DNA of 36,748 nt. Source: Opitutus sp. (GTDB taxonomy: Bacteria; Verrucomicrobiota; Verrucomicrobiia; Opitutales; Opitutaceae). A program made the translations under genes and the position numbers. The first letter of the stretch is position 1; every line of letters starts with the position of its first letter. Below the pieces are notes generated by a model. That model ran no database searches. It had not been told where the DNA came from and saw nothing but the letters and a program-made list of their open reading frames with translations. The stretch is from the NCBI GenBank assembly GCA_013822585.1, contig PNKG01000005.1:1-36748 (forward strand), read 5' to 3'. This document shows positions 6,784 through 18,737 of this stretch, piece by piece.

Positions 6784-7674
6784 TCAGCGCCTGCGGTGGC
6801 GGCGCTCCCAGGCGAAGAGGCATTGCTGGGCGTAGCCGGCCGACGGCCCGAAGTGCGCGCGGCCGAACTGCGCGACCTGCGCGGGTTTCCAGCCGTCGAG
6901 CCCGTAGCGGCGCGCCAGCGACTTGAGGATCCACGTGTCGACCGGGAAGGCCTCGAGCTTGCCCGCGCCGAAGAGGAGCACGCAATCCGCGACCTTCCCG
7001 CCCACGCCGGGCAGTTCCATCAACCGTGCCTTGGCCACGGGGTAGGGCGCGGCTTCCGTCTCGTCCAACCAGCCGGGCTGCGTCGCAAGGAAGCGCGCGG
7101 TCTCCGCGATGTAGCGGGCGCGGAAGCCGAGCAGGCAGGCACGGAGGTCCTTCTCCGGCAGGGCGGCGAGTTCGGCCCAGGTCGGCAGGCGGCGGAAAGG
7201 TGCGTCGTCAGCCAGCGGCGCGCCGTGGCGATCGGCGAGCAGGGCGACCATCTGTTTGATCTGCACGATCTGCTTCGTCGCGCTGCAAAGGAACCCGAGC
7301 AGGGTCTCGCCGAAGGGTTGGCGCAGAAGCCGCAGGCCGCGGAAATCACCGAGGCAACGCGCCAGGTGCGCGTCGCTCCGCCACGGAAGGGCGTCGGCCA
7401 GTGCGGCCCAGTTGTGTTCGCCGCCGAGATACCGCGGCAGCGCGGCCGAGACGCGCGACTCGAGCGCCTGCGGCGCGCGCCATTCGGGCGCGCCGGCTCC
7501 GGTCAGGCGCAACTGGGCGGCGCAATCGCCCCAGAGGCCGGTCCACACGCCATCGGGGTCCTGTTGCCAGCGGAAAGACTGGCCGCCGTCGAGCGTCTCG
7601 GCCAGCCCGGCGGCCGCGGGAGACCAGCCGGCGAAGCCCCGCCACGGGCACCAGTCCGGCGCGCGGAATCTCAC
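6784..7674 (-). CDS. ogg: 8-oxoguanine DNA glycosylase, OGG1 type
   Basis: A protein of 296 residues that should excise 8-oxoguanine opposite C and nick the strand (base excision repair). The OGG_N domain hallmark GQSFRW is at about 31-36. The helix-hairpin-helix reads MELPGVGGKVADCVLLFG, with the catalytic Lys at about 227, followed by EAFPVDTWI holding the conserved Asp (about 246). This is the eukaryote-like OGG1 form rather than MutM. The GTG start used overlaps the upstream gene's stop (GTGA); a TTG six codons further up is the alternative. It is the last gene of a minus-strand unit with a small secreted protein and an oppA-like gene, a grouping with no obvious functional logic. Confidence 0.88.
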   Translation of the reverse strand: MRFRAPDWCPWRGFAGWSPAAAGLAETLDGGQSFRWQQDPDGVWTGLWGDCAAQLRLTGAGAPEWRAPQALESRVSAALPRYLGGEHNWAALADALPWRSDAHLARCLGDFRGLRLLRQPFGETLLGFLCSATKQIVQIKQMVALLADRHGAPLADDAPFRRLPTWAELAALPEKDLRACLLGFRARYIAETARFLATQPGWLDETEAAPYPVAKARLMELPGVGGKVADCVLLFGAGKLEAFPVDTWILKSLARRYGLDGWKPAQVAQFGRAHFGPSAGYAQQCLFAWERRHRRR

Positions 7675-8138
7675 TGGGAGGGTTTTTCCCAAAGATAGCT
7701 CTGCTGCGCGGCGAGCGGCTCTCCGGCGGCGTTGCGCAGGTCGAGTTTCCAGGCGACGGCGCCGGTCTTGGAGTCGGGCCAGTCGGCGCCGGTGACGCCG
7801 AGATGGAAGACCGCTTCGCCCGCCGGCACGGCGGCGGGGAACCGGAAGGCGCGGGGCTGCGGCGAGTTCGGCAGAACGACCTGGAACTCGAAGCGGCCAT
7901 CGAACGGCGCGCCGGTGTTGCGCGTGCGCACGAGGAAGTAGTAGCCGGCGCGCTGCTCCGGGTGCGTGCGCACGACGATCTCGCCGCCGGTGTTCTCGCG
8001 GCCGGTGAAATATTCCGAGATGCGCTTGAACGACCCAGCGTCGCGCCAGCCGCTGTAGACGCGCACGATCCGCAGGTCTGCGGCGGAAGCGGCGGAAGCG
8101 GCGGAAGCGAGGGCGAGGAAAAGCGCGAGGAATCGCAT
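7671..8138 (-). CDS. Small secreted protein of unknown function
   Basis: A 155-residue protein with a clear signal peptide (MRFLALFLALASAASAASAADL; cleavage expected near residue 19-22). The mature part is beta-rich: VYSGWRDAGSFKRISEYFTGRE, YYFLVRTRNTGAPFDGRFEFQVVLPNS, AVFHLGVTGADWP, AVAWKLDLRNAAGEPL. This looks like an immunoglobulin-like or C2-like sandwich, but I do not recognise a named family. The ATG used starts the signal peptide; a GTG three codons upstream is possible. It lies 16 bases after the oppA-like gene and overlaps the glycosylase gene, so all three are likely co-transcribed. The signal peptide codons contain a GCGGAAGCG tandem. Confidence 0.75.
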   Translation of the reverse strand: MRFLALFLALASAASAASAADLRIVRVYSGWRDAGSFKRISEYFTGRENTGGEIVVRTHPEQRAGYYFLVRTRNTGAPFDGRFEFQVVLPNSPQPRAFRFPAAVPAGEAVFHLGVTGADWPDSKTGAVAWKLDLRNAAGEPLAAQQSYLWEKPSQ

Positions 8139-8154: not shown

Positions 8155-9750
8155 TCAGGGCGCGGCGAGGTAAACCTTTTTGTATTGGTGAAAGCCGAGC
8201 AACGCCGGCTCCCAGCCGCGGACGGCCGGATGGATCAGATACGAGCGCGTTCCGAAGAACACGGGCGCGATGGGGGACTGCCCGAGCAGGCGGGCCTCGG
8301 CCCGCTGGAAGGCCGCGAAGCGGTCCTCCCGCGCGCCGGCGCGCGCGGCGGCGGCGAGGGCCGCGTCGTAGTCCGCGTCGGCCCAGCCGGTCCAGTTGTT
8401 GGTGCCGCCGCCGACGAACATGTCGAGGAATGTCACCGGGTCGACGAAGTCGCCGACCCACCGGGCGGTGGAGATGGCGTAGGCGAGCGACTGCTGGTTC
8501 TTCACCCAGGTCTTCTGCTCGACAGGCGAGATCGTGACGGTGACGCCGAGTTCGCGCCGCCACATTTCCTGGATGATTTCCATGACCTTGGCGTGGAGTT
8601 CGTCGTTGCGCACCTGCGCGTCGAGCGGGGGGAAGCCCTGGCCGCCGGGAAAGCCGGCGGCGGCGAGCAGCGCGCGGGCCTGCGCCGGATCGTGCGGCAC
8701 GCGGGCCTGGGCGTTGTAGCCGGCGCAGTCCGGTGGCGTGTAGTGCGCGGCGGGAGCGCGCGTGCCGCGGAGCAGTGTGCGGGAGAGCTGAGCGCGGTCG
8801 ATCGCGAGCGAGAGGGCGCGGCGCACCCGGGCGTCGCCGAGCGGCGCGCGCGTGGTGTTGAAGCGGAGGAAGAAGGTTTCGAGGAACGGGTCGAGCCGCA
8901 GGCTGGCCGGCGCGGATTTGCGGTAGCTGTCCACCTTGGCGAGCGGCAGCTCGGCGGTGAGGTGCACCTGGCCCGCGCGGAAGGCGCGCTCGTCGACGTC
9001 CATGTTCTCCGTCGGGAAAAACGTGATCCCGCGCAGGCGGACCGCGGCGGCCTCCCAGTAGTGCGGGTTGTGCACGACCTTCACATGGGCGTTGGGCGAC
9101 CACTCCGCGAGGGCGAAGGGGCCGTTGCCGACGAGGTGGCCGGGGCGGGTCCAGGCTGTGCCGCGTTGCGCGAGGCCTTTGAACTTCGCGAGCGTCGGTC
9201 CGTGGACCGGGAACCAGACCGGGTTGGCCGTCAGCGCGGGCAGGTAGGGCGTGGGGCGTTCGAGCGCGAGGCGGAGTGTGCGGTCGTCGACGGGCTCGGC
9301 GCCCAAGGCCGCGGGCGGCAGCCGGCCGGAGGCGACGGCTTCGGCGTTCTTGAGCGGGAAGAGCAGGTAGGAATACTCCGCCGCGAGCGCGGGCAGCAGG
9401 GCGCGCCGCCACGAGTCGACGAAGTCGGCCGCGGTCAGGGGCGAGCCGTCGGACCACTTCAAGCCGGCGCGCAGGTGGAAGGTCCATGTCAGGCCGTCGT
9501 CGTCGGCCTCCCAGCGTTCCGCCGCGGCGGGGACGGCCGCAGAGGTTTTCTCGTCCAGTGCGCAGAGTCCCTCGAAGAGGGCGAGCGCGATGTTCTGGTC
9601 GGTGAAGGCTGTCATGACCTGCGGATCGAGGTCCTGGGGCTCGGCGCCGTTGCCGACCAGCAGCACCTGGTCGCGGATGCCGTCGTCGACGAGCCGCGCG
9701 GGCAAGGTCGCGGCGGACAGCAGGGCGAGGGCGAGCAGGCGGTGGCGCAT
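8155..9750 (-). CDS. Peptide ABC transporter substrate-binding protein (OppA-like)
   Basis: A 531-residue family-5 solute-binding protein that captures oligopeptides for an ABC importer. The N-terminus MRHRLLALALLSAATLPARL is a signal peptide without a lipobox Cys. Family blocks are visible: EPQDLDPQVMTAFTDQNIALALFEGL, WTFHLRAGLKWSDGSPLTAADFVDSWRRAL, GNGPFALAEW, VRRALSLAIDRAQL, FPPLDAQVRNDELHAKVMEIIQEMW and the C-terminal SPIAPVFFGTRSYLIHPAVRGWEP. No permease or ATPase genes are adjacent, so it must be an orphan binding protein or work with a transporter elsewhere. The next genes on the strand are a small secreted protein and an OGG1-type glycosylase. Confidence 0.9.
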   Translation of the reverse strand: MRHRLLALALLSAATLPARLVDDGIRDQVLLVGNGAEPQDLDPQVMTAFTDQNIALALFEGLCALDEKTSAAVPAAAERWEADDDGLTWTFHLRAGLKWSDGSPLTAADFVDSWRRALLPALAAEYSYLLFPLKNAEAVASGRLPPAALGAEPVDDRTLRLALERPTPYLPALTANPVWFPVHGPTLAKFKGLAQRGTAWTRPGHLVGNGPFALAEWSPNAHVKVVHNPHYWEAAAVRLRGITFFPTENMDVDERAFRAGQVHLTAELPLAKVDSYRKSAPASLRLDPFLETFFLRFNTTRAPLGDARVRRALSLAIDRAQLSRTLLRGTRAPAAHYTPPDCAGYNAQARVPHDPAQARALLAAAGFPGGQGFPPLDAQVRNDELHAKVMEIIQEMWRRELGVTVTISPVEQKTWVKNQQSLAYAISTARWVGDFVDPVTFLDMFVGGGTNNWTGWADADYDAALAAAARAGAREDRFAAFQRAEARLLGQSPIAPVFFGTRSYLIHPAVRGWEPALLGFHQYKKVYLAAP

Positions 9751-10020
9751 GCCGCCACGATGCACGCGGTCCGGTCTCGCGCAAGCGGCTGAATGGCCGC
9801 CCCATTCCCGCGGCTTGCTGCGGGGTTTTCCGAGTGAGATGAGGACGCCGCCCGGCCAGTCCCGCGCCAGCGGGGCTGTGCAGCCGCGGGGAGTTCCGAG
9901 CGCCAGCGAGAATCCGTCATCCCCGGAGCCTGCTCCGGGGGGTAGCGCGGGCGGAAGGGCGGCGTTCAATTGCCGGCCGCCTGTGCCGATGCAAGAGCCA
10001 GGCCCCGCGCCCCGCGCTTT
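9751..10020. promoter_or_regulatory. Divergent intergenic region with hairpins
   Basis: This gap lies between the divergent oppA-like and sigma-vWA fusion genes. It holds a perfect hairpin CCCCGGAG-CCTG-CTCCGGGG at 9921-9940 and a weaker one ending in GTTTT near 9810-9834 (CCCGCGGCTTGCTGCGGG). Neither follows a gene on its strand, so they are more likely repeats or attenuators than terminators. No convincing promoter boxes were identified. An ATG at 9989 opens only an 11-codon frame whose TGA overlaps the TTG chosen as the start of the fusion gene. Confidence 0.3.
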
Positions 10021-12495
10021 TTGAGCAACCCACAGCATTCCTCCGCAAACTCCGCGGTGGTCGAGGCCGCCCGTCGGCGGCACGCCACGGCATTGCGGAG
10101 CTACGCCGTCGAACTTCGCCCGGGCGACAAGATCGATGCGGAGGCGTTGCTCGCGGCGACCTGGGAAGCGCTCTCGCGGCAGCCCGAGCCGGAGTCTGAC
10201 GACAAACTCGCCGCCTGGCTTTTCTCCGACGTCCGCCGCCGGGCATTGGCCGGGCACCGCAGCGGAGGCTTGGCGGACGACCGAGGCGCCGAGGACGACG
10301 TCTCGGCCGAGGCGATCTTCGAGCGGTTGACGCCGAAACAACAGGAGGTGCTGCTGCTGAAATTCGCGCATGGCTTCCGCCACGGGCAGATCGCCCAGAT
10401 TGTCGAACTGTCGCCGGCGAACGCCGCGCAACTCCTGCATGTCGCGCTCACCCGGCTGGCCCCGGCCTTTCGCGCGGAGGGGTCGGGAGGCGATGCGGGC
10501 CTGCGGGGCGATCACCGGCTGACCCTGGCCGCACTCGGCGAACTCGACGGCGAGGCCTGGCGCGCTTGGGAGGCGGAACAGGTCGACGTCGCCGCGGCAA
10601 ACGGGCGGCTCGAGCAGGTGCGCCGCGCGGGAAAATGGACGACCGGCTATCTGGTGAGCGGTCGACGCCGCCGGCAGCGGGGCAAGAAACGCAGCGGGCG
10701 GCCTTGGATCATCGGGGCGGCGATGATTTTCCTGGGCGTGGCGGCCACCCTGTATTGGCCGCGCGGGGAAGAACCCCGGGAGGAGAAACCCCTGCGGGAA
10801 CAAGCCCGGCCGACGAAAGCCCGTGTGGCCGTGCCGCAGGGCGGGGGAAAAGGGCAAACGGCCGACCCCGTCGACGGCGGCACGGAGGCGGTCAGCCTGG
10901 GTGTTTACCGGGAACCGGAGAGCCGTCTGCGCGAGACAACGAGCCGGCCGGAACCGGTGGGTGCAGTGCCCGCCGGATCAGACGATTCGCTGAAGATCGC
11001 GGAGCCCGCGGCGCCGCCCCGCGGCGCCGCCGATGCACTCAAAGTCACCGCTCCCAAGGCCGAGTTGCGCGGCATCGTTCAAGGCATGGATGAGCCGGCC
11101 GGTCACTCGGCTCCTGTTGTCCCGGCTGGGGCGGCGCCAAGGGCGACGCCTGAGGCACAGTCTGCCGGCCACAGCGTCGTCATCATCGAGCACAACCTGG
11201 CGGCGCCAAGGGCGACGCCTGCGGCACAGTCTGCGGCGGACGAAGTCGTGAGGCAGGGACCGGTCAAGCCGAGCCAGGCGGCGACGGTCGCGCCGACCGA
11301 CACCGCGGCGATCGTCGCCCTGAAACGCGCGCTCGGCCACGGACGCTGGCCGCAGCCCGAAGAGGTGAATCCCGTCCGGTTGGCGGCGTATTTCTCGCCG
11401 CCGGCACGAGGCGGCGAACGGGCTGCGCTGTTCGGGAAGTCGCTCGAATCCGCCACGGCGCCATGGGACTCAGGGGCGGTGTTGCTGCGCGCGACCGCGC
11501 AGGCGCCGGAGGCGCCGCCAGCCCTGCGCGCCCCGGCCAATGTGATCCTGTTGCTCGATGTTTCAGGCTCCATGGACGCGCCAAACCGCCTTCCGCTCGT
11601 GCAGGAAGCCGTGCGCGGCCTGCTCGACCGCCTGCGGCCGGAGGACCGGGTCGGGCTCGTGACCTACGCGGGAGAATCGCGCGTGCTGCTGGCGCCGGCC
11701 GAACTGACGGATGTGCGCCGGGTGCGCGAGACGGTGCTCGGGCTCGAGGCCCGCGGCCGGACCAACGGCGGCGCCGGGTTGGCCAAGGCTTTCGCGCTCG
11801 CCCGCCAAGACGGACGGGCGCACGGCGAACACGTGGTCATCCTGTGCACGGACGGCGATTTCAACATGGGTGAGACCAGCGAGGAGGAACTGGCGGCCGG
11901 CGTGCGGGTGGCGGCCGGGGCCGGCGTGCGGCTGGCGATCTTCGGCTTCGGCCGGCCGGGCGAGATCGACCCGCGGCTCGAGCGACTGGCGGCGCTCGGG
12001 CGCGGCGGCAGCGGCTACGTGAACACCCGCGCCGACGCCATCAGCGTGATGCTCGCGCAGCTGGACGAGTTGATCGCCCCGTCGGCCACGGATGTCCGTC
12101 TGGGGTTGAGGACGGAAGGCGGCGCGCGCGGCGCGGCTTTGGCCGAGAAGCTCCTGCCCTCCGACACGGTCGCGACGCTGGTGGCGACGCGGCCGGACGA
12201 TCCGGCCGAGGCGGTGCTCGAATACCGGCTCGCGCGCGGCGGGGAGGAGCGCACGGAGTCCGCTCGCGGGCGGGCGGCGTTGCGGGAATTCCGCGCCGCG
12301 AGCCCCGAATTCCGTTTCGCGGCGGCGGTGCATCGATTCGCCGAGCTGCTGTCCGGCCCGCCCGCGCAGGCGGAGGCCGAGTTCGACGATCTCGAGGTGT
12401 GGGCGCGCGAATCGGTCGACGACGCCGGCGGCTATCGGGCGGAATTCCTCGCCTTGCTCGCGCAGGCCCGCACGGCGGCCGCCGCGGCGCGTTGA
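10021..12495 (+). CDS. Fusion: ECF sigma-like domain + anti-sigma-like segment + TM helix + vWA (YfbK-like) domain
   Basis: An 824-residue protein. Residues about 12-80 resemble sigma-70 region 2 (KLAAWLFSDVRRRALAGHR) and 100-150 region 4 (ERLTPKQQEVLLLKFAHGF, then a helix-turn-helix). Residues 163-205 (DHRLTLAALGELDGEAW) match the anti-sigma-like N-terminus of the vWA gene two genes on. A very basic stretch RRRRQRGKKR precedes one membrane helix (229-246), so by the positive-inside rule the sigma part is cytoplasmic and the rest outside. A Pro/Ala linker leads to a vWA domain with complete MIDAS: DVSGSM (about 513), RTNGGAG, CTDGDFN. The C-terminus DDAGGYRAEFLALL matches YfbK-like proteins. 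The start is uncertain: no ATG fits; TTG gives MSNPQHSSAN, with GTG at 10057 or TTG at 9970 as alternatives. The sigma part is diverged from consensus, so promoter recognition is unproven. Confidence 0.82.
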   Translation: MSNPQHSSANSAVVEAARRRHATALRSYAVELRPGDKIDAEALLAATWEALSRQPEPESDDKLAAWLFSDVRRRALAGHRSGGLADDRGAEDDVSAEAIFERLTPKQQEVLLLKFAHGFRHGQIAQIVELSPANAAQLLHVALTRLAPAFRAEGSGGDAGLRGDHRLTLAALGELDGEAWRAWEAEQVDVAAANGRLEQVRRAGKWTTGYLVSGRRRRQRGKKRSGRPWIIGAAMIFLGVAATLYWPRGEEPREEKPLREQARPTKARVAVPQGGGKGQTADPVDGGTEAVSLGVYREPESRLRETTSRPEPVGAVPAGSDDSLKIAEPAAPPRGAADALKVTAPKAELRGIVQGMDEPAGHSAPVVPAGAAPRATPEAQSAGHSVVIIEHNLAAPRATPAAQSAADEVVRQGPVKPSQAATVAPTDTAAIVALKRALGHGRWPQPEEVNPVRLAAYFSPPARGGERAALFGKSLESATAPWDSGAVLLRATAQAPEAPPALRAPANVILLLDVSGSMDAPNRLPLVQEAVRGLLDRLRPEDRVGLVTYAGESRVLLAPAELTDVRRVRETVLGLEARGRTNGGAGLAKAFALARQDGRAHGEHVVILCTDGDFNMGETSEEELAAGVRVAAGAGVRLAIFGFGRPGEIDPRLERLAALGRGGSGYVNTRADAISVMLAQLDELIAPSATDVRLGLRTEGGARGAALAEKLLPSDTVATLVATRPDDPAEAVLEYRLARGGEERTESARGRAALREFRAASPEFRFAAAVHRFAELLSGPPAQAEAEFDDLEVWARESVDDAGGYRAEFLALLAQARTAAAAAR
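11131..11234. repeat. 35-bp direct repeat inside the fusion gene linker
   Basis: Two 35-base copies (11131-11165 and 11200-11234) differ at one base and begin 69 bases apart, so both are read in the same frame. Each encodes AAPRATP(E/A)AQSA. They lie in the Pro/Ala-rich linker between the membrane helix and the vWA domain of the sigma-vWA fusion, suggesting local duplication in a disordered tether. Confidence 0.75.
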
Positions 12496-12555
12496 GCCGG
12501 GCGGGCAAATTTCGCTGGTTTGCAGCCTAATAAACCGCAGGCTGGCCCGTCGGGC

Positions 12556-13095
12556 ATGGCAGGTGACGTGAACACCCGAGAACACACCGATGAGAACCAG
12601 GCTTTCGTGGAGAAGGCGGTCGCCGCCCATCAAGCGCCCTTGCTGCGCTACGCCACCCGCCTGCTGCACGGCGACGCGGACCGGGCGCGCGACGTGGTGC
12701 AGGACACGTTCGTCCGCCTGCTCGGCCAGAAGCGCGCGGCGATCGAGGATCATCTGGCGGAGTGGCTCTTCACCGTCTGCCGCCACCGCGCGCTCGACTG
12801 CCTGCGCAAGGAGGGCCGCGTGAGGCTTTTCGAGGAAGGCCAGGCCGAGCGCCTCACGGCCGAAACGCCGCGCCCCGGCGCGGCCGTCGAGCGCAACGAA
12901 GCGCGCGCTGCCGTGCTGAGGTTGTTGGAGCGGCTGCCGTCCAACCAGCAGGAGGTCGTGCGCCTCAAGTTCCAAAACGGTTTCAGCTACAAGGAAATCA
13001 GCCGCATCACGTCGCTGTCGGTGACGAACGTCGGCTTCATCCTGCACACCGCCGTGGCGCGGCTGAGAGAGGAGATGGCGCGGCAGCCCGAGTGA
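12556..13095 (+). CDS. ECF-type RNA polymerase sigma factor
   Basis: A 179-residue sigma-70 family protein with regions 2 and 4 only. Region 2 (about 14-85) has LLRYATRLLHGDADRARDVV, QDTFVRLLGQ, and EWLFTVCRHRALDCLRKEGR. Region 4 (about 120-172) has LERLPSNQQEVVRLKFQNGF and the helix-turn-helix YKEISRITSLSVTNVGFILH. The ATG giving MAGDVNTREH was chosen; a TTG 12 codons earlier and a GTG four codons later are possible. It lies 60 bases after the fusion gene and 22 bases before the membrane vWA gene, so the three probably form one operon. Its sequence aligns end to end with the sigma part of the fusion (for example EWLFTVCRHRAL against AWLFSDVRRRAL), showing the two are paralogues. Confidence 0.92.
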   Translation: MAGDVNTREHTDENQAFVEKAVAAHQAPLLRYATRLLHGDADRARDVVQDTFVRLLGQKRAAIEDHLAEWLFTVCRHRALDCLRKEGRVRLFEEGQAERLTAETPRPGAAVERNEARAAVLRLLERLPSNQQEVVRLKFQNGFSYKEISRITSLSVTNVGFILHTAVARLREEMARQPE

Positions 13096-13117: not shown

Positions 13118-15217
13118 ATGAGCACTTCGGAATTCAACCCCGACGATCCCCGGCTGACGGCCTACGCCCTCGGCGAGATGGAAAACTCCGAGCGCGTCGA
13201 GTTCGAGCGCTGGCTGCAGACCAACCCGGCGGCGCGGCAGGCCGTGGAGGAAATCCGCGCCACCGCGGCGCTGCTCGGCACGGCGCTCGCCGCCGAGGCC
13301 GGGCCGGAGGCGGCGAAACCGATCGCGGCTGCGGCGATCATCCCCAAGCTCGGCCCCGGCGGGGTCCCGGGGCAGCTCGACGGCGGCCCGCTGCCGCCGG
13401 TCGACGACTACGTGCGCCAAGGCAGCAAGCTGCTGAGATTTCCCGCGCTATACTACACGACGGCCGGTCTCGCCGCGGCGTGCTTTGCGGTGGTGTTCTT
13501 TTCCACGGCCGGGAGGCAGGAGAGGAAAGAGAAGACGCAGCTGATCGAGATGGATGCCGCCCTGGCGGGGGCGCTGCGCAGTGCCGAACCCCGATCCGAC
13601 GTGCAGAAAGCGCGGGAAGTCCGGGCGGCCGTCGCGGCGCAGACCGAACATGCGGTCGCGATGGCGTCGCCGGTGGCGGAGCCGGCGCCGGTGGCCCCCG
13701 GAGCGCTGAAGCCCGGGAGATTCGCGGTCGCCGGAACGGCGCCGGTGGCCCGGGCGCAGCCGTCCGTCGCGGAACAGGAGTTCAACACCGAGAATTACGC
13801 GGCATTCGGCGAGAACCCCTTCCTCGCTGTGGCGCAGAACCCGCTGTCGACCTTCGCGGCCGACGCCGACACGGCCTCGTATGCGAACGTCCGGCGCTTC
13901 CTCCGTGCCAAGCAGCGTCCGCCGAAATCCGCGGTGCGCATCGAGGAGCTGGTGAACTATTTCCCGTATCGCTATGCGCCGCCGGCGGCCGGGGCGGCGC
14001 CGTTCGCGGCCCACCTCGAAGTCGCGAGCGCGCCCTGGGTGCCGGAGCACCGGCTCGTCCGCATCGGCCTGAAGGGCCGCGAGGTGAGCGATGCGGCGCG
14101 GCCGCCGGCGAACCTGGTGTTCCTGCTCGATGTGTCGGGCTCGATGAACGCGCCGGCCAAGCTGCCGCTGGTGAAGCAGTCGCTGCGGCTCCTGCTCGAG
14201 CGGCTGCGGCCCGACGACCGCGTGGCGATCGTCGTCTACGCCGGGGCGTCCGGCCTGGCGCTGCCGTCCACGCCGGTGCGCGAGAAGGCGAAGATCGTCG
14301 CCGCGCTGGAGGAGCTCCGCCCCGGCGGCTCGACCAACGGCGCGGCGGGCATCCAGCTCGCCTACGACATCGCGAAGGCGAATTTCGTGGCCGGCGGCGT
14401 CAACCGCGTGGTGCTCACCACGGACGGTGACTTCAACGTCGGCGTGTCGGGCGAGAGCGAGCTGGCCGAGCTGATCCGCGAGAAGGCGCGCAGCGGCGTG
14501 TTTCTCAGCGTGCTTGGTTTCGGGATGGGCAACCTGAAGGACAGCACGCTCGAGTCGCTGGCGGACAAGGGCAACGGCCACTACGCCTCCATCGACTCGC
14601 TGGCCGAGGCGAAGAAGGCGCTGGTCGGGCAGGCCGGCGGCACGCTCGTGACGATCGCGAAGGACGTGAAGCTGCAGGTGGAATTCAATCCCGCCGAGGT
14701 GCAGGCCTACCGCCTGATCGGCTACGAGAACCGGATGCTGCGCCAGGAGGACTTCAACAACGACCGCATCGACGCCGGCGAAATCGGCGCGGGCCACACG
14801 GTGACGGCTCTCTATGAAATCGTGCCGGTGGGCGCCGCCCTGCCGGATACCGGCTCGGTCGATGCGCTGAAATATCAGCGCACGGAGGGTCCGGCCCGGA
14901 AGGCGGAAGAACGCGCCCGCGGCGAGTTGCTCACGCTCAAGATCCGCTACAAGGAACCGGATGGCGACGTGAGCATGAAGCTCGAGTTTCCGCTGCGGGA
15001 TACCGGACGGGCCTTCGCCGAGGCCAGCGCGGACTTCAAGTTCGCGGCGGCGGTGGCGTCGTTCGGGATGATCCTGCGCGACTCGCCGCACCGCGGCGGG
15101 GCGACGCTGGCACAGGTGGCCGCTTGGGCGCGGGAAGGCACGATGGACGACAGCGGCGGCTATCGCGCGGAATTCGCCGGCCTCGTGGCCGAGGCGGCCG
15201 CGGTGCTGCAGGAATGA
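13118..15217 (+). CDS. Membrane vWA protein, YfbK-like, with anti-sigma-like N-terminus
   Basis: A 699-residue protein. Residues 1-60 (DPRLTAYALGEMENSERVEF, LQTNPAARQAVEEIR) resemble the short cytoplasmic helical domain found at the start of many anti-sigma factors, but lack zinc-finger Cys/His. One membrane helix is at about 108-130 (ALYYTTAGLAAACFAVVFF). After a Pro/Ala linker comes the YfbK-type N-terminal block (NPLSTFAADADTASYANVR, RIEELVNYFPY), then a vWA domain with complete MIDAS: DVSGSM (about 338), GSTNGAAG, TTDGDFN. The C-terminal YfbK domain follows (ENRMLRQEDFNNDRIDAGEI, DDSGGYRAEFAGLV). A CAGGAGA ribosome site precedes the ATG. Lying directly behind an ECF sigma gene, it is the natural candidate for that factor's membrane regulator; this is inference. 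Confidence 0.9.
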   Translation: MSTSEFNPDDPRLTAYALGEMENSERVEFERWLQTNPAARQAVEEIRATAALLGTALAAEAGPEAAKPIAAAAIIPKLGPGGVPGQLDGGPLPPVDDYVRQGSKLLRFPALYYTTAGLAAACFAVVFFSTAGRQERKEKTQLIEMDAALAGALRSAEPRSDVQKAREVRAAVAAQTEHAVAMASPVAEPAPVAPGALKPGRFAVAGTAPVARAQPSVAEQEFNTENYAAFGENPFLAVAQNPLSTFAADADTASYANVRRFLRAKQRPPKSAVRIEELVNYFPYRYAPPAAGAAPFAAHLEVASAPWVPEHRLVRIGLKGREVSDAARPPANLVFLLDVSGSMNAPAKLPLVKQSLRLLLERLRPDDRVAIVVYAGASGLALPSTPVREKAKIVAALEELRPGGSTNGAAGIQLAYDIAKANFVAGGVNRVVLTTDGDFNVGVSGESELAELIREKARSGVFLSVLGFGMGNLKDSTLESLADKGNGHYASIDSLAEAKKALVGQAGGTLVTIAKDVKLQVEFNPAEVQAYRLIGYENRMLRQEDFNNDRIDAGEIGAGHTVTALYEIVPVGAALPDTGSVDALKYQRTEGPARKAEERARGELLTLKIRYKEPDGDVSMKLEFPLRDTGRAFAEASADFKFAAAVASFGMILRDSPHRGGATLAQVAAWAREGTMDDSGGYRAEFAGLVAEAAAVLQE

Positions 15218-15342: not shown

Positions 15343-18300
15343 TCAGACCCGGCGGCGGCGCCAAGCGGCGAGGCCCGCCAAGCCGAGGCCAAGGCCGAAG
15401 AGCGCGTAGGTCGAGGGCTCGGGCACGGCGGTGAAGTTCAGGAGAAGTTCACCGGAGCCGCTGAGATTGGTGAACTCGAGCGAGAGGGTCCCGGAGATCG
15501 AGGTTTGCCAGTAGCTGGAGAGAGTGGGATCGAGGGCGATGTTGGCCGGGTTGATCGATTGGGTCACGCCGGCGATGCTCTGGTAGCTGATCAGGGTCCA
15601 GGAGTAGGTCACGCCGGGCGTCAGTCCGCCGAGGATGCCGTCGACACCGGCGGAATTGAGGCTGACGGGACGGATCAGGAACGGCGATTCGGGGGTTGAA
15701 GAGACGGTGAGAGTCGTCGGCAGGGAGACCAGGATCTTGTCGTGGCCGGCTTGGGCGGAGTTGTCCGCATCGATGATGTCCCATTCGAATACGCCGCCCG
15801 AGGCGAGGGTGAGTTCGCTGATGGAGAGTTCACCGATGCGGCCGTGGGTGTCGTCGTAGCCGGCCATCAGCTTTGCTCCGTTGCCGATGGTCACGGAGGA
15901 GTCGATGGTGCCGCGGCCGCCCAGCGCGCCGGCGCTGACGATGATCGGATTGGAGAGGCTGGTGTCGGCGAGGATGAGTGCGCCCCCGTTGACCCAGAGG
16001 CTGGAACTCGAGTCATCGAGGTAGAAGCCGTTGCCAAGCACGAGGGTGCCGTTGCGGACCTCCAGGAGGACGTTGGGGTCGCCCGCCAAGCCGGTGCCGC
16101 CGAAGCCGGTGGCGTAGAAGCCGTAATCTGCGTCCTCTTCGCCGCCTTCGAGGCTGAGGACGCCCGGGCCGTCCTTGACCAGGCGGGCGTTCTGGCCGTT
16201 GGCGCTGATGTAGCCGCGGAAGGAACTGCCCTGTTCGAGCAGGGAAGGCTGGTTGACCGTGAGAACGGTGTTGTCGACCGTCAGGTAGATCTCGCTGTAA
16301 TCCGGGCTGGAGAGGCCGCCGATCACCGGGGCGTTCGTCGTTGCGCCGACAAAATTGACCACCGCCGAGGAGTAGGCGGAGCTTTCGAATTGCAGCGGCC
16401 CGGCTCCGAGGCCGGTGTTGCTGGCGACGTTGACCGTGCTGTCGCCGCTGACGTGGACGCCGCCGGTGAAGGTGTTGTTGCCGCTCAGGGTGAGCGTGAA
16501 GGCGCCGTTGGTCTCCTCGCCGACGTAGAGTTCACCGCCGCCGCTGATGTTGCCCGCGAGGGTGAAGGAGCTGTCGCCGCCGACGTCGATCTCGGTCTGC
16601 AGGGAAATATTGTTCGGCACGATGATGTCGGCCGTGGTGGCGGAGAGGAGCGGGTAGGGCGGCTCGTCCTCGCCTTCCAGGGTGAAGGCGACCGGTGCGA
16701 TGGTGAGGGGGCCGGCGCCGAGGGCGTTGGTGGGGTCTGTGCCGATGACGCCGTTGGACTGGCCGATCATGAGCCGGCCGCCGTAGAAGGTGGTGCCGCC
16801 GGCGAGGCCGGTGCCGTTGTTGCCGGTGAGCAGCACGGTGGAATACAACTCGCGGATCCGGTCGCCGAAGGCGCCGAGGGCGTCGGGTTGGCCGATGACG
16901 AGCGCATTGCCGGTGAGCGTGCCGGCCACTTCGAGGGCGCCGCCCTTGTAGGCGGCGAAGCGGTGCACGCCGTCGCCATCGGGCTCGATGGTGCCGGTGA
17001 GGCGGACGCCGGGACCGGCGATCTCCTGCGTCGCGCTGCTCCAGAGAAACGAGCTGGTGCCGATGTAGGCCTGAGTGAAATCGGTCGAGGGGGAGTTGCC
17101 CACCTGCACGCCGGTGAGATCGATCACGCGCGTGGAAAGGGCGTTGGGGGCGATGTCGAAGCCGATGATGCCGGGTGTGGTGGTGGAAAAGCGGGAGAAC
17201 ATGGCCTGCGCGGTGAGGTCGGGATCCTCGCTGCCGATGTAGGAACCGGAGTCCATGGTCATCGTGCCGGCGGGGAGGTAGGCCGTTTCGGCGGTCTGGT
17301 TGTCGCCGAAGACAAGGGCGGAATCGGTGACACTCACCGCGCCGGTGAAATTGTTGGTGGTGTTCATCAGCCGCAGGGTGAGCGGCAGCTGGGCGGGCGA
17401 ATCGACCACGAGCCCGCGGCTGCCGGTGAGCTGGGTGGCGACCGAGAGCACGCCGCCGCCGCCGCCGAAGCGGTAGTCGCCGCCCTGCGGGGTGATCGTG
17501 GCGTAGGGACCAAGGATGGCGTGGCTGGCGGAACCGAGACGGAGGTTGGCGTTGAAACCGGAAAGGTCGATGGCGATGGCGGTCTCGGCGGAGCTGCCGA
17601 AGGTGCTTTGCGGTTGATCGAGCGGAGAATCGAAACCGATGGCGCCGGACGAGGTGGTGTTGAGCTGGCCGAGGAATCCGCCGACGTTCTGGCCGGTGGT
17701 GATGCCGACATAGCCCAAGGGTCCCACCGTGATGCCGCCGGTCGTGCCCGGGGTGTTGTTTTCGCCGGCGAAGACGAGCACGCCCTTGTCGACCTGCGTG
17801 CCGCCGGTCCAGCCGTTGCTGCCGGTGAGGATGATGGCACCGGCGGCGTTGACGGTCACTTTCCTGCCGGCGGAGGCTTCGCCGATGGCGCCGCTGATCG
17901 TCAGGGAGTCTCCGCTGGAATTGAAGGTCGTGTCGCTGTTGAGGGTGATGGCGCCGCTCAACTCGAATTCCACATCATTTCGGGTGTTCAGGACGCCGTT
18001 GAGGATGAGGTTGTTTCCCAACAGAACGGTGGCGTCTTCGTCGACTTGGTCGCGTGCGACCAGCGCCGGGAGTCCGGCGCCCGTGGCGGGCCCGATGGTG
18101 AGCGTGCCGGTGCCGAGGGCGGTGTTGGCCATATGGCCGCCAGTGCCGACGATCTCGATGCTGCCGTCGTTGAGTGCGATGTTGGAGGCGAGCCCGGTGT
18201 TGCCGTCGCGGAGCACCAGGCGTCCGGCGCCGGTCTTGGTCAGTGTCGCATCGCTTGATCCGGCAAGATACCCTTCGAAATCGACCGTGCCGCCGTTGAT

Positions 18301-18687
18301 GGCCCAAGTCTGATCGGTGGAGAGCTGAATCGCGAGAGACTCGTGGAACTTCAGCCACGCCGAGGATGAGGAAGGGGAGAACAGAAGGCCGCCCGCGCCA
18401 AGTGTCAGGGTGGTCACCCAGCCTTCGAAGCGATAGGAGTCGTATATTTTCAGCCCGTAGATGCCGCTCGAAGAATTGACCGTCACGAAATTGCCCGTGG
18501 CGTTTCCGAAGAGGAGGGACGCCGTTCCGTCGGTGAGGGGCGGCAGCAAGTCCGCCTCCCAATTTGCCGCATTGTCCAGATATGGCGTGGAGCCGGAGCC
18601 GGTCCAGACTGAGTCTGCCGCAGACCCGTGAAGTGGAGCAGAGGACGTCAGAGCCGCCGCCACGGCGAACAAAAGGAGACGTTTCAT
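15343..18687 (-). CDS. Autotransporter-associated beta-strand repeat protein with PEP-CTERM anchor
   Basis: A 1114-residue secreted protein. The signal peptide is MKRLLLFAVAAALTSSAPLHGSA. The mature start DSVWTGSGSTPYLDNAANWE is the typical opening of autotransporter-associated repeat (PATR, TIGR02601) proteins. Repeats of the form LTKTGAGRLVLRDGNT, GNNTFTGGVHVSGDSTVNV, LVKDGPGVLSLEGG and GALILADTSLSNP indicate a long right-handed beta-helix. The C-terminus VPEPSTYALFGLGLG, then a helix and WRRRR, is a PEP-CTERM sorting signal, cleaved by an exosortase in known systems. There is no autotransporter beta-barrel. No exosortase gene is in the window. Likely a surface or matrix protein. The ATG chosen opens the signal peptide directly. 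Composition is richer in Thr, Ser, Asn and Gly than its neighbours. Confidence 0.9.
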   Translation of the reverse strand: MKRLLLFAVAAALTSSAPLHGSAADSVWTGSGSTPYLDNAANWEADLLPPLTDGTASLLFGNATGNFVTVNSSSGIYGLKIYDSYRFEGWVTTLTLGAGGLLFSPSSSSAWLKFHESLAIQLSTDQTWAINGGTVDFEGYLAGSSDATLTKTGAGRLVLRDGNTGLASNIALNDGSIEIVGTGGHMANTALGTGTLTIGPATGAGLPALVARDQVDEDATVLLGNNLILNGVLNTRNDVEFELSGAITLNSDTTFNSSGDSLTISGAIGEASAGRKVTVNAAGAIILTGSNGWTGGTQVDKGVLVFAGENNTPGTTGGITVGPLGYVGITTGQNVGGFLGQLNTTSSGAIGFDSPLDQPQSTFGSSAETAIAIDLSGFNANLRLGSASHAILGPYATITPQGGDYRFGGGGGVLSVATQLTGSRGLVVDSPAQLPLTLRLMNTTNNFTGAVSVTDSALVFGDNQTAETAYLPAGTMTMDSGSYIGSEDPDLTAQAMFSRFSTTTPGIIGFDIAPNALSTRVIDLTGVQVGNSPSTDFTQAYIGTSSFLWSSATQEIAGPGVRLTGTIEPDGDGVHRFAAYKGGALEVAGTLTGNALVIGQPDALGAFGDRIRELYSTVLLTGNNGTGLAGGTTFYGGRLMIGQSNGVIGTDPTNALGAGPLTIAPVAFTLEGEDEPPYPLLSATTADIIVPNNISLQTEIDVGGDSSFTLAGNISGGGELYVGEETNGAFTLTLSGNNTFTGGVHVSGDSTVNVASNTGLGAGPLQFESSAYSSAVVNFVGATTNAPVIGGLSSPDYSEIYLTVDNTVLTVNQPSLLEQGSSFRGYISANGQNARLVKDGPGVLSLEGGEEDADYGFYATGFGGTGLAGDPNVLLEVRNGTLVLGNGFYLDDSSSSLWVNGGALILADTSLSNPIIVSAGALGGRGTIDSSVTIGNGAKLMAGYDDTHGRIGELSISELTLASGGVFEWDIIDADNSAQAGHDKILVSLPTTLTVSSTPESPFLIRPVSLNSAGVDGILGGLTPGVTYSWTLISYQSIAGVTQSINPANIALDPTLSSYWQTSISGTLSLEFTNLSGSGELLLNFTAVPEPSTYALFGLGLGLAGLAAWRRRRV

Positions 18688-18737
18688 CGCACGGATGCGT
18701 CTACTCCGACCTGCGGGGAAGGACAAGGTCTTATTGC

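Follow-up and report, generated by a model that had tools for sequence, protein, structure and literature searches.

Fusions of extracytoplasmic function (ECF) sigma factors with anti-sigma parts and a transmembrane (TM) segment have been described before, and the consulted sections of three papers report them for ECF48, ECF52, ECF53, some members of ECF36, and IutY (PMC8999054, PMC5826349, PMC5411451). Another known relative of sigma factors is PhyR, whose core RNA polymerase (RNAP) and promoter regions appear degenerate and which titrates NepR, according to the consulted part of PMC8103513. For ECF sigma factors themselves, the portions of PMC8103513 and PMC4598750 that we drew on give the sigma2.2–beta′ contact as the main one with core RNAP, and class I anti-sigma domains also contact sigma2.1/2.2, as stated in the part of PMC7406223 used here. 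In the DNA analysed in this work, the first 36,748 nucleotides of contig PNKG01000005.1 from an Opitutus sp. (hereafter, the window), one forward-strand gene at 10021–12495 joins a sigma2-like domain, a sigma4 domain, an anti-sigma-like segment, a TM helix, a linker, a vWA domain, and a partial YfbK_C domain in a single protein of 824 amino acids. We suggest, with a probability of somewhat less than one half, that this fusion is a membrane-tethered mimic of a sigma factor, since region 2.2 has been lost, whereas sigma4 persists throughout and the anti-sigma-like helices persist in most copies.

Region 2.2 and region 4 of the fused sigma part

Sigma2 and sigma4 are the only sigma domains of the fusion, and sigma2 was recognised in an AlphaFold model and its structural matches. 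In a Pfam scan, which for the window copy used an 841-residue reading beginning 17 codons upstream of the start chosen below, the sigma2-like domain (10042–10257, forward strand as for all features of the gene; residues 8–79) obtained 15.2 bits for Sigma70_r2 against a cut-off of 24, and this family passed its cut-off in none of the 11 fusions scanned, the window's included. The sigma4 domain (10306–10470, residues 96–150) exceeds the cut-off, with 33.9 bits for Sigma70_r4_2 against 25.7. The first-pass annotation of this DNA had proposed a pair of sigma regions 2 and 4, of which the second half passes Pfam and the first does not. Among the ten other fusions scanned, a region 4 model was over its cut-off in seven (L034, L040, L042, L045, L086, L087, and L089) and just short of it in two (L035 and L037), and the copy of L038 matched no sigma-70 family at E ≤ 0.1.

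The loss is concentrated in region 2.2 (10135–10176), which reads DAEALLAATWEALS in the window fusion versus RARDVVQDTFVRLL in the sigma factor encoded next to it. When 18 fusions were aligned with 28 sigma factors from two-gene pairs of the kind that lies directly downstream in the window (hereafter, pair sigmas), the Q-D/E-F triad of this region was complete in 28/28 pair sigmas versus 0/18 fusions. We take these three residues to be those that make the contact with the beta-prime clamp helices. Individually, the Q occurs in three fusions (G010, G135, and G131), the F in one (G150), and in two an acidic residue fills the D position (E, in G008 and G003). Neither D46 nor D50 is retained in any of the 18, and Q131, E133, F143, and L154 of sigma4 are present in all of them. 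At sites nearly invariant in pair sigmas, the fusions retain 73% in regions 1.2/2.1, 29% in region 2.2, 46% in regions 2.3/2.4, 68% in region 4.1, and 62–63% in region 4.2. Pairwise identity in 14 matched genomes points in the same direction, being 0.28 for fusions and 0.85 for pairs in region 2.2, and 0.65 and 0.89, respectively, in region 4.1. The start of region 4.1 carries a signature found only in fusions, L-T-x-K-Q (residues 103–107), whose T and K are present in 18/18.

Nei–Gojobori counts of the ratio of nonsynonymous to synonymous substitution rates (dN/dS), made for two close genome pairs with few changes per segment, gave for G012/G002 and G001/G007, in that order, 0 and 0.05 in sigma4, 0.39 and 0.09 in sigma2, 0.31 and 1.15 in the short linker between the two, 0.24 and 0.105 in the anti-sigma-like segment, 0.52 and 0.50 in the TM helix plus linker, and 0.05 and 0.07 in the vWA domain of the fusion; the pair sigma gave 0.067 and 0.052. 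On these counts, the sigma4 domain of the fusion is under purifying selection. Because the region 2.2 triad is lost and Sigma70_r2 remains under its cut-off in every copy scanned, the fusion is probably not a sigma factor; on the dN/dS values, its sigma part is probably not a relic either.

Profile and structure comparisons add a likeness to PhyR as well as to sigma factors. A profile of the fused N-terminus matched eight Protein Data Bank (PDB) sequences at E ≤ 0.001, of which three are PhyR (9cb6, 1.5e-8; 2lfw, 4.6e-6; 9by5, 3.3e-4); besides the top match, taken up below, the others are RpoE known from its NepR complex, SigD region 4, and two other ECF sigmas. The profile of the neighbouring sigma had 20 PDB matches at the same threshold, all of them sigma factors, with no PhyR above threshold. 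An AlphaFold model of residues 1–252, made with 12 aligned sequences from the genus (predicted local distance difference test, pLDDT, 82.9; predicted template modelling score, pTM, 0.76), places helices in the sigma2-like domain (9–79), in sigma4 (96–150), in the anti-sigma-like segment (165–171, 177–185, and 190–213), and past it (215–225 and 228–244, the latter being the membrane helix). In VIA-align, this model, which includes the anti-sigma-like segment, matched NepR-bound RpoE (5uxx_C) with a Z of 11.1 over 137 residues at 3.5 Å, and CnrY-bound CnrH, RsiW-bound SigW, and PhyR superposed on sigma2 and sigma4 jointly at 3.5–4.7 Å, while RNAP-bound ECF sigmas fit by single domains, or as a whole at 25–27 Å. 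The class I complex RpoE/RseA (1or7) matches by one domain only, and SigK/RskA (4nqw) at 9 Å. A control model of residues 1–154 (pLDDT 82.5) has the same closed form, matching 5uxx_C with a Z of 13.9 over 139 residues at 3.3 Å and whole RNAP-bound ECF sigmas at 24–27 Å.

The fusion gene and its distribution

The gene has 824 codons open without a stop over 10021–12492, followed by TGA. In 12/12 copies from the genus, the codon at the aligned start position is TTG or GTG, and the start codon in the window would be TTG. The guanine-plus-cytosine content at codon position 3 is 0.76–0.88 in all five segments of the fusion tested. After sigma4 come the anti-sigma-like helices, DHRLTLAALGEL... (10510–10659, residues 164–213), which resemble the N-terminus of the YfbK-type protein encoded downstream; they contain no cysteine, so a zinc finger of the ECF52 type is not found there. 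A basic stretch then precedes a single membrane helix (10702–10758, about residues 228–246), for which the top 19-residue windows begin at residues 228/229 with a mean Kyte–Doolittle hydropathy of 1.63, and the positive-inside rule would place the N-terminal part inside and the C-terminal part outside.

Beyond the membrane helix lies a fast-evolving linker rich in Pro and Ala (10759–11289), with a 51-nt direct repeat (copies at 11130 and 11199, 84%), which is followed by a remnant of PF12450 (vWF_A; 11290–11490; 14.9 bits versus a cut-off of 25). The vWA domain (11539–11994) reaches 56.3 bits, with a cut-off of 23.8, and has a full metal ion-dependent adhesion site (MIDAS; DVSGSM, RTNGGAG, and CTDGDFN), whose residues D513, S515, S517, T581, and D611 are invariant across 11 aligned fusions. 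YfbK_C (PF12034; 12250–12471) reaches 33.4 bits, with a cut-off of 25, and is matched by its C-terminal half only. In the window fusion, VWA and half of PF12034 are thus over their cut-offs with PF12450 under, and in five of the ten other fusions scanned (L040, L042, L045, L086, and L087), all three families are over. The first-pass annotation had described a single stop-free frame, the order sigma-like, anti-sigma-like, TM, and vWA, and a complete MIDAS, and it had asked for a profile check of VWA and YfbK_C; the open frame and its recurrence in 17 further genomes, the agreement of Pfam, AlphaFold helices, and hydrophobicity, and the strings and scores just given bear out all of these, and its coordinates are correct.

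Twelve of the 13 genus genomes have the fusion; the one without it (G011) is 74% complete. Eleven of these copies are in one open frame, among them that of G010, which reaches a contig end; the G003 fusion is divided between two contig ends, with flanks (an OppA-like gene and the sigma gene) that match the usual order. Six genomes from four other genera of the family, Opitutaceae, also carry it (G135, G193, G131, G179, G150, and G199), with the frame of G150 interrupted within vWA by a contig end. In a draw of 200 genomes from the family, at least 16 have the fusion, namely ten of the genus and the six from other genera. For draws from the order (273 genomes) and the phylum (288), which include family members and in which 10 and 9 candidates per genome were scored at E ≤ 1e-6 and 1e-8, respectively, no fusion outside the family was found among the matches listed, where the non-family long frames that cover the sigma part have at most about 330 codons. 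The search for this architecture in other Verrucomicrobiota that the first-pass annotation called for thus finds it in one family, across five genera, and nowhere beyond among those matches. Long frames in G070, G080, G147, and G022 resembled fusions and were separate genes on inspection. With 12 of the 13 genus genomes and six others carrying it, the fusion is neither a chance frame nor an assembly error of one genome, an artefact that its presence in 17 further genomes rules out.

On its upstream side, the fusion gene of the window is flanked by a divergent gene for an OppA-like solute-binding protein (8158–9750, reverse strand; SBP_bac_5, 304.7 bits), a conserved neighbour that was found beside the fusion at 14 of 18 further loci, and beyond it by a putative DNA-glycosylase-like gene, so named by reading alone (6784–7692, reverse strand).

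The neighbouring pair and possible modes of action

Directly downstream on the forward strand come two genes, one for an ECF sigma that seems intact (12556–13095, beginning at ATG 12556 or GTG 12568; Sigma70_r2 37.5 bits and Sigma70_r4_2 46.1 bits) and one for a YfbK-type protein (13118–15217) with an anti-sigma-like N-terminus, PF12450, vWA, and a full YfbK_C. The fusion is 39% identical to this pair in the sigma part and 35% in the vWA part, and its segment DHRLTLAALGEL has a counterpart, DDPRLTAYALGEM, at the beginning of the YfbK-type protein; N-termini of four of ten such partner proteins scanned have sub-threshold matches to zf-HC2. Two unrooted trees were built, the first from 18 fusions together with 28 pair sigmas and the second from the fusions together with 18 pair proteins that retain vWA. 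In both, a single branch parts fusions from pairs (support 100/96 and 100/100, respectively), with long branches for the fusions of G199, G010, G150, and G003. Since the pair adjoins downstream and the trees part at one branch, we infer that the fusion descends from such a sigma and anti-sigma/vWA pair; one duplication followed by fusion fits the trees, and several events may fit them as well. Within these trees, the window fusion clusters with those of G008/G012/G002 and the window pair sigma with those of G006/G001/G007, so the locus may be of mixed history through exchange or gene conversion. In L038, L039, L041, and L085, 9–10 kb separate the fusion from the pair. Convergent with the pair is a gene for a large PEP-CTERM-motif protein with a sub-threshold PATR repeat (15343–18726, reverse strand), relatives of which adjoin the pair at several loci.

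Under the mimic reading, a tandem copy of the ECF sigma gene and the gene for the YfbK-type anti-sigma/vWA protein merged into one gene, as the neighbourhood and the trees support; its sigma half subsequently lost the region 2.2 residues and retained sigma4 and, mostly, the anti-sigma-like helices, as the sequences show. At rest, the cytoplasmic sigma-like domain might engage the helix bundle of its own protein. Binding of a ligand by the outside vWA domain through its MIDAS could then shift the sigma-like domain to the anti-sigma part of the downstream YfbK-type protein, which, once occupied, would release the real ECF sigma. Such a mode would be that of PhyR with the receiver domain replaced by a membrane helix and vWA. 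The fullest form of this proposal is a transmembrane counterpart of PhyR, in which a metal-dependent vWA domain controls a self-docked sigma look-alike and switches the neighbouring anti-sigma, and with it TonB/ExbD and envelope genes, and in which partners without vWA are parts of a split receptor; we hold this more detailed version only tentatively, as roughly a one-in-three prospect in kind.

What the real sigma might control can be judged from its promoter-like elements. Upstream of the neighbouring sigma gene, on the forward strand, there is an ECF-type element, CTAAKAAA-N13-CGT (12527–12550), common to sigma genes of other genera and absent upstream of the fusion gene. The 13 genus genomes contain 43 exact sites versus 15 of the reversed pattern, six of the latter in G005. 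Of 30 sites fetched, five are ahead of the sigma gene itself and four have no assigned gene; judged by eye from the N-termini, the genes after the others comprise five TonB-like, five ExbD-like, four TPR, and four S55-peptidase-like genes, together with one serpin, one DUF4139, and one other TPR. Pfam, run on nine of the 30 genes, confirmed two TonB, one ExbD, two TPR, one S55, the serpin, and the DUF4139, and found no family in the L070 gene. The regulon of the pair sigma may accordingly be one of the envelope or of TonB-energised uptake. Site counts were rejected as a test for sigma loss, as genomes that bear the pair also show low counts: against the control, genomes without an intact pair have 2 versus 4 (G179) and 1 versus 7 (G199), and pair-bearing ones 4 versus 5 (G048), 2 versus 2 (G135), and 3 versus 4 (G193), with 3 versus 2 in G150, 5 versus 2 in G131, and 4 versus 1 in G018. 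A sigma pseudogene of G179 (L087, 5183–5404) adjoins the fusion gene and still has a near-match of the element upstream. For the fusion itself, a bipartite element, TGAAWTY-N13-CCGAT, was read by eye upstream of the gene in eight other genus genomes and has a loose counterpart in the window (9965–9990, forward strand). Its longer form, TGAAWTY-N13-CCGATRAG, has five exact matches in the 13 genomes (reversed pattern, 0), and one-mismatch matches are scattered, with some adjoining the fusion. A regulon for this element was rejected, as the exact matches adjoin only the fusion gene.

A further hint comes from the partner proteins. At seven of the ten loci where fusion and pair are at most 2.3 kb apart (the window, L034, L035, L036, L037, L040, L042, L043, L084, and L088), the partner has no vWA but has PF12450 and YfbK_C (L034, L035, L036, L037, L040, L042, and L043), counts that come from related genomes and not from independent events; in the window, both fusion and partner retain vWA. 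This loss hints at a division of labour in which the fusion would now supply the vWA domain. PF12450 and PF12034 stay in the proteins of L034–L037, L040, L042, L043, L051, and L052 though vWA is missing, which suggests that vWA is an insertion within a single domain made up of these two.

Several observations weigh against the reading of the fusion as a mimic that works through its neighbour. SigL tops the profile search (1.1e-10), and RNAP-bound SigL (6dv9_F, 4.5e-4) is the best Foldseek match by E-value and the only one at E ≤ 0.001. Loss of region 2.2 could weaken anti-sigma binding too, because the anti-sigma surface overlaps it. The compact AlphaFold form was discarded as proof that the anti-sigma-like segment acts as a clamp, and no conclusion on clamping is drawn from it, because the model without that segment is equally closed. 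The anti-sigma-like motif is eroded in the aligned fusions of G001 and G007. The vWA domain of the partner has been lost at none of the four loci where the fusion is 9–10 kb away (L038, L039, L041, and L085), and, among genomes in which no fusion was detected, three of 14 pairs have lost it (L051, L052, and L091, the last judged by BLAST only). Finally, the pair was found in 15 of the 18 fusion-bearing genomes, which speaks for the reading, but not in intact form in the other three. In G179, the fusion is open, the pair sigma survives only as a short, early-terminated pseudogene whose region 2.2 is altered, and the YfbK-type partner was not found; in G199 (93% complete, 340 contigs, so that a gap is possible), the fusion is open and neither pair gene was found; and in G010 (86% complete), the pair was not found. 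Thus, in at least one genome, the fusion seems to have persisted beyond the loss of its presumed partner, and it cannot always act via this pair, as G179 and G199 have an open fusion without an intact one.

Among other explanations, the one that we consider next, at appreciably lower odds, is that the fusion is a second anti-sigma with a built-in plug, whose helices hold the neighbouring ECF sigma and whose fused sigma-like domain is a pseudo-substrate displaced by a vWA signal. The purifying selection on the anti-sigma-like segment, its recognisable relationship to the N-terminus of the downstream protein, and the shared gene neighbourhood would all suit such a protein, but G001 and G007 still have the pair although their copies of the motif are eroded, and the partner already possesses such a domain. 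The first-pass annotation had preferred a working ECF sigma, tethered and then freed by regulated proteolysis, a mode known from IutY and proposed for ECF52. The similar domain order (PMC8999054, PMC5411451, as far as the consulted sections go), a sigma4 domain above its Pfam cut-off, and the SigL matches by profile and Foldseek speak for this idea, and yet it is unlikely given the absence of the region 2.2 triad from all fusions and its presence in all pair sigmas, with Sigma70_r2 under cut-off in 11/11. Of its broader view of a one-protein sigma/anti-sigma/sensor system, the domain order and the descent from a pair are supported, and the working sigma is not.

The two alternatives that the same annotation had listed fare better, the decoy being the best explanation here and a membrane-bound DNA-binding protein a lesser rival. 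The latter would bind −35 elements through sigma4 as its helix-turn-helix, with no sigma role, and appears about as unlikely as the tethered sigma. Sigma4 is indeed the best retained cytoplasmic part, and the recognition helix is still like that of the pair sigma in the fusions of G179, G150, and G199, a clade to which the two genomes lacking an intact pair belong; however, in the remaining fusions, this helix is variable and mostly unlike that of the pair sigma, the best retained block is region 4.1, and no target motif of the fusion was found in a search that covered only its own upstream element. It is more improbable still that the sigma part is a non-functional relic borne by a functional vWA protein. 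The long fusion branches in both trees, the degenerate sigma2, and the L038 copy without a Pfam sigma-70 family would be expected of a relic, but dN/dS values of 0 and 0.05 for sigma4 and below 1 for sigma2, as well as the conservation of T and K within L-T-x-K-Q across all 18 fusions, would not.

Comparison with known systems

The adjoining intact pair provides a built-in relative with which the fusion can be compared, and genomes with and without a partner vWA, or without the pair, amount to natural experiments. More generally, proteins annotated as a sigma factor fused to some other domain need their region 2.2 checked before they are labelled as sigma factors.

In its second half, the fusion is a diverged representative of the YfbK type (PF12450-VWA-PF12034) that is found next to ECF sigmas and of which 13118–15217 encodes an intact form; the window fusion differs from it in keeping vWA while PF12450 and half of YfbK_C are eroded. 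With IutY (ECF243) and ECF48/52/53, it has in common that a sigma part, an anti-sigma part, a TM segment, and a further domain occur in one protein (PMC8999054, consulted in part). In contrast to the fusion, which has lost region 2.2, those proteins become, or are expected to become, active sigma factors through proteolysis, and the consulted sections describe no vWA domain for them. The likeness to PhyR is that of a sigma2–sigma4-like domain, degenerate in core binding, fused to a signal-input domain (PMC8103513 and PMC4598750, as far as consulted). The input of PhyR, however, is a receiver domain and its target NepR, whereas the fusion has a TM helix and vWA as input, carries an anti-sigma-like segment in cis, and descends from a local ECF pair. 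No receiver-domain family is among the 11 Pfam families listed for the window fusion at E up to 10, and PhyR_sigma-like (PF22233) stays under its cut-off with 14.3 bits versus 27.

Neither a sigma-TM-vWA protein nor a membrane-spanning sigma mimic was found in the literature searched, which did not reach the main ECF re-classification; PMC12826043 and PMC8195603 concern other subjects. This agrees with the first-pass annotation, to which no such fusion was known, although the wider class of sigma/anti-sigma-TM proteins is known. Thus, sigma/anti-sigma-TM fusions and a soluble mimic, PhyR, had already been described, and what would be new here is the sigma–vWA fusion as a membrane-spanning mimic. 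If this reading is true, sigma mimicry, known from PhyR in Alphaproteobacteria, would have arisen anew through the duplication and fusion of an ECF pair, in a form that acts across the membrane.

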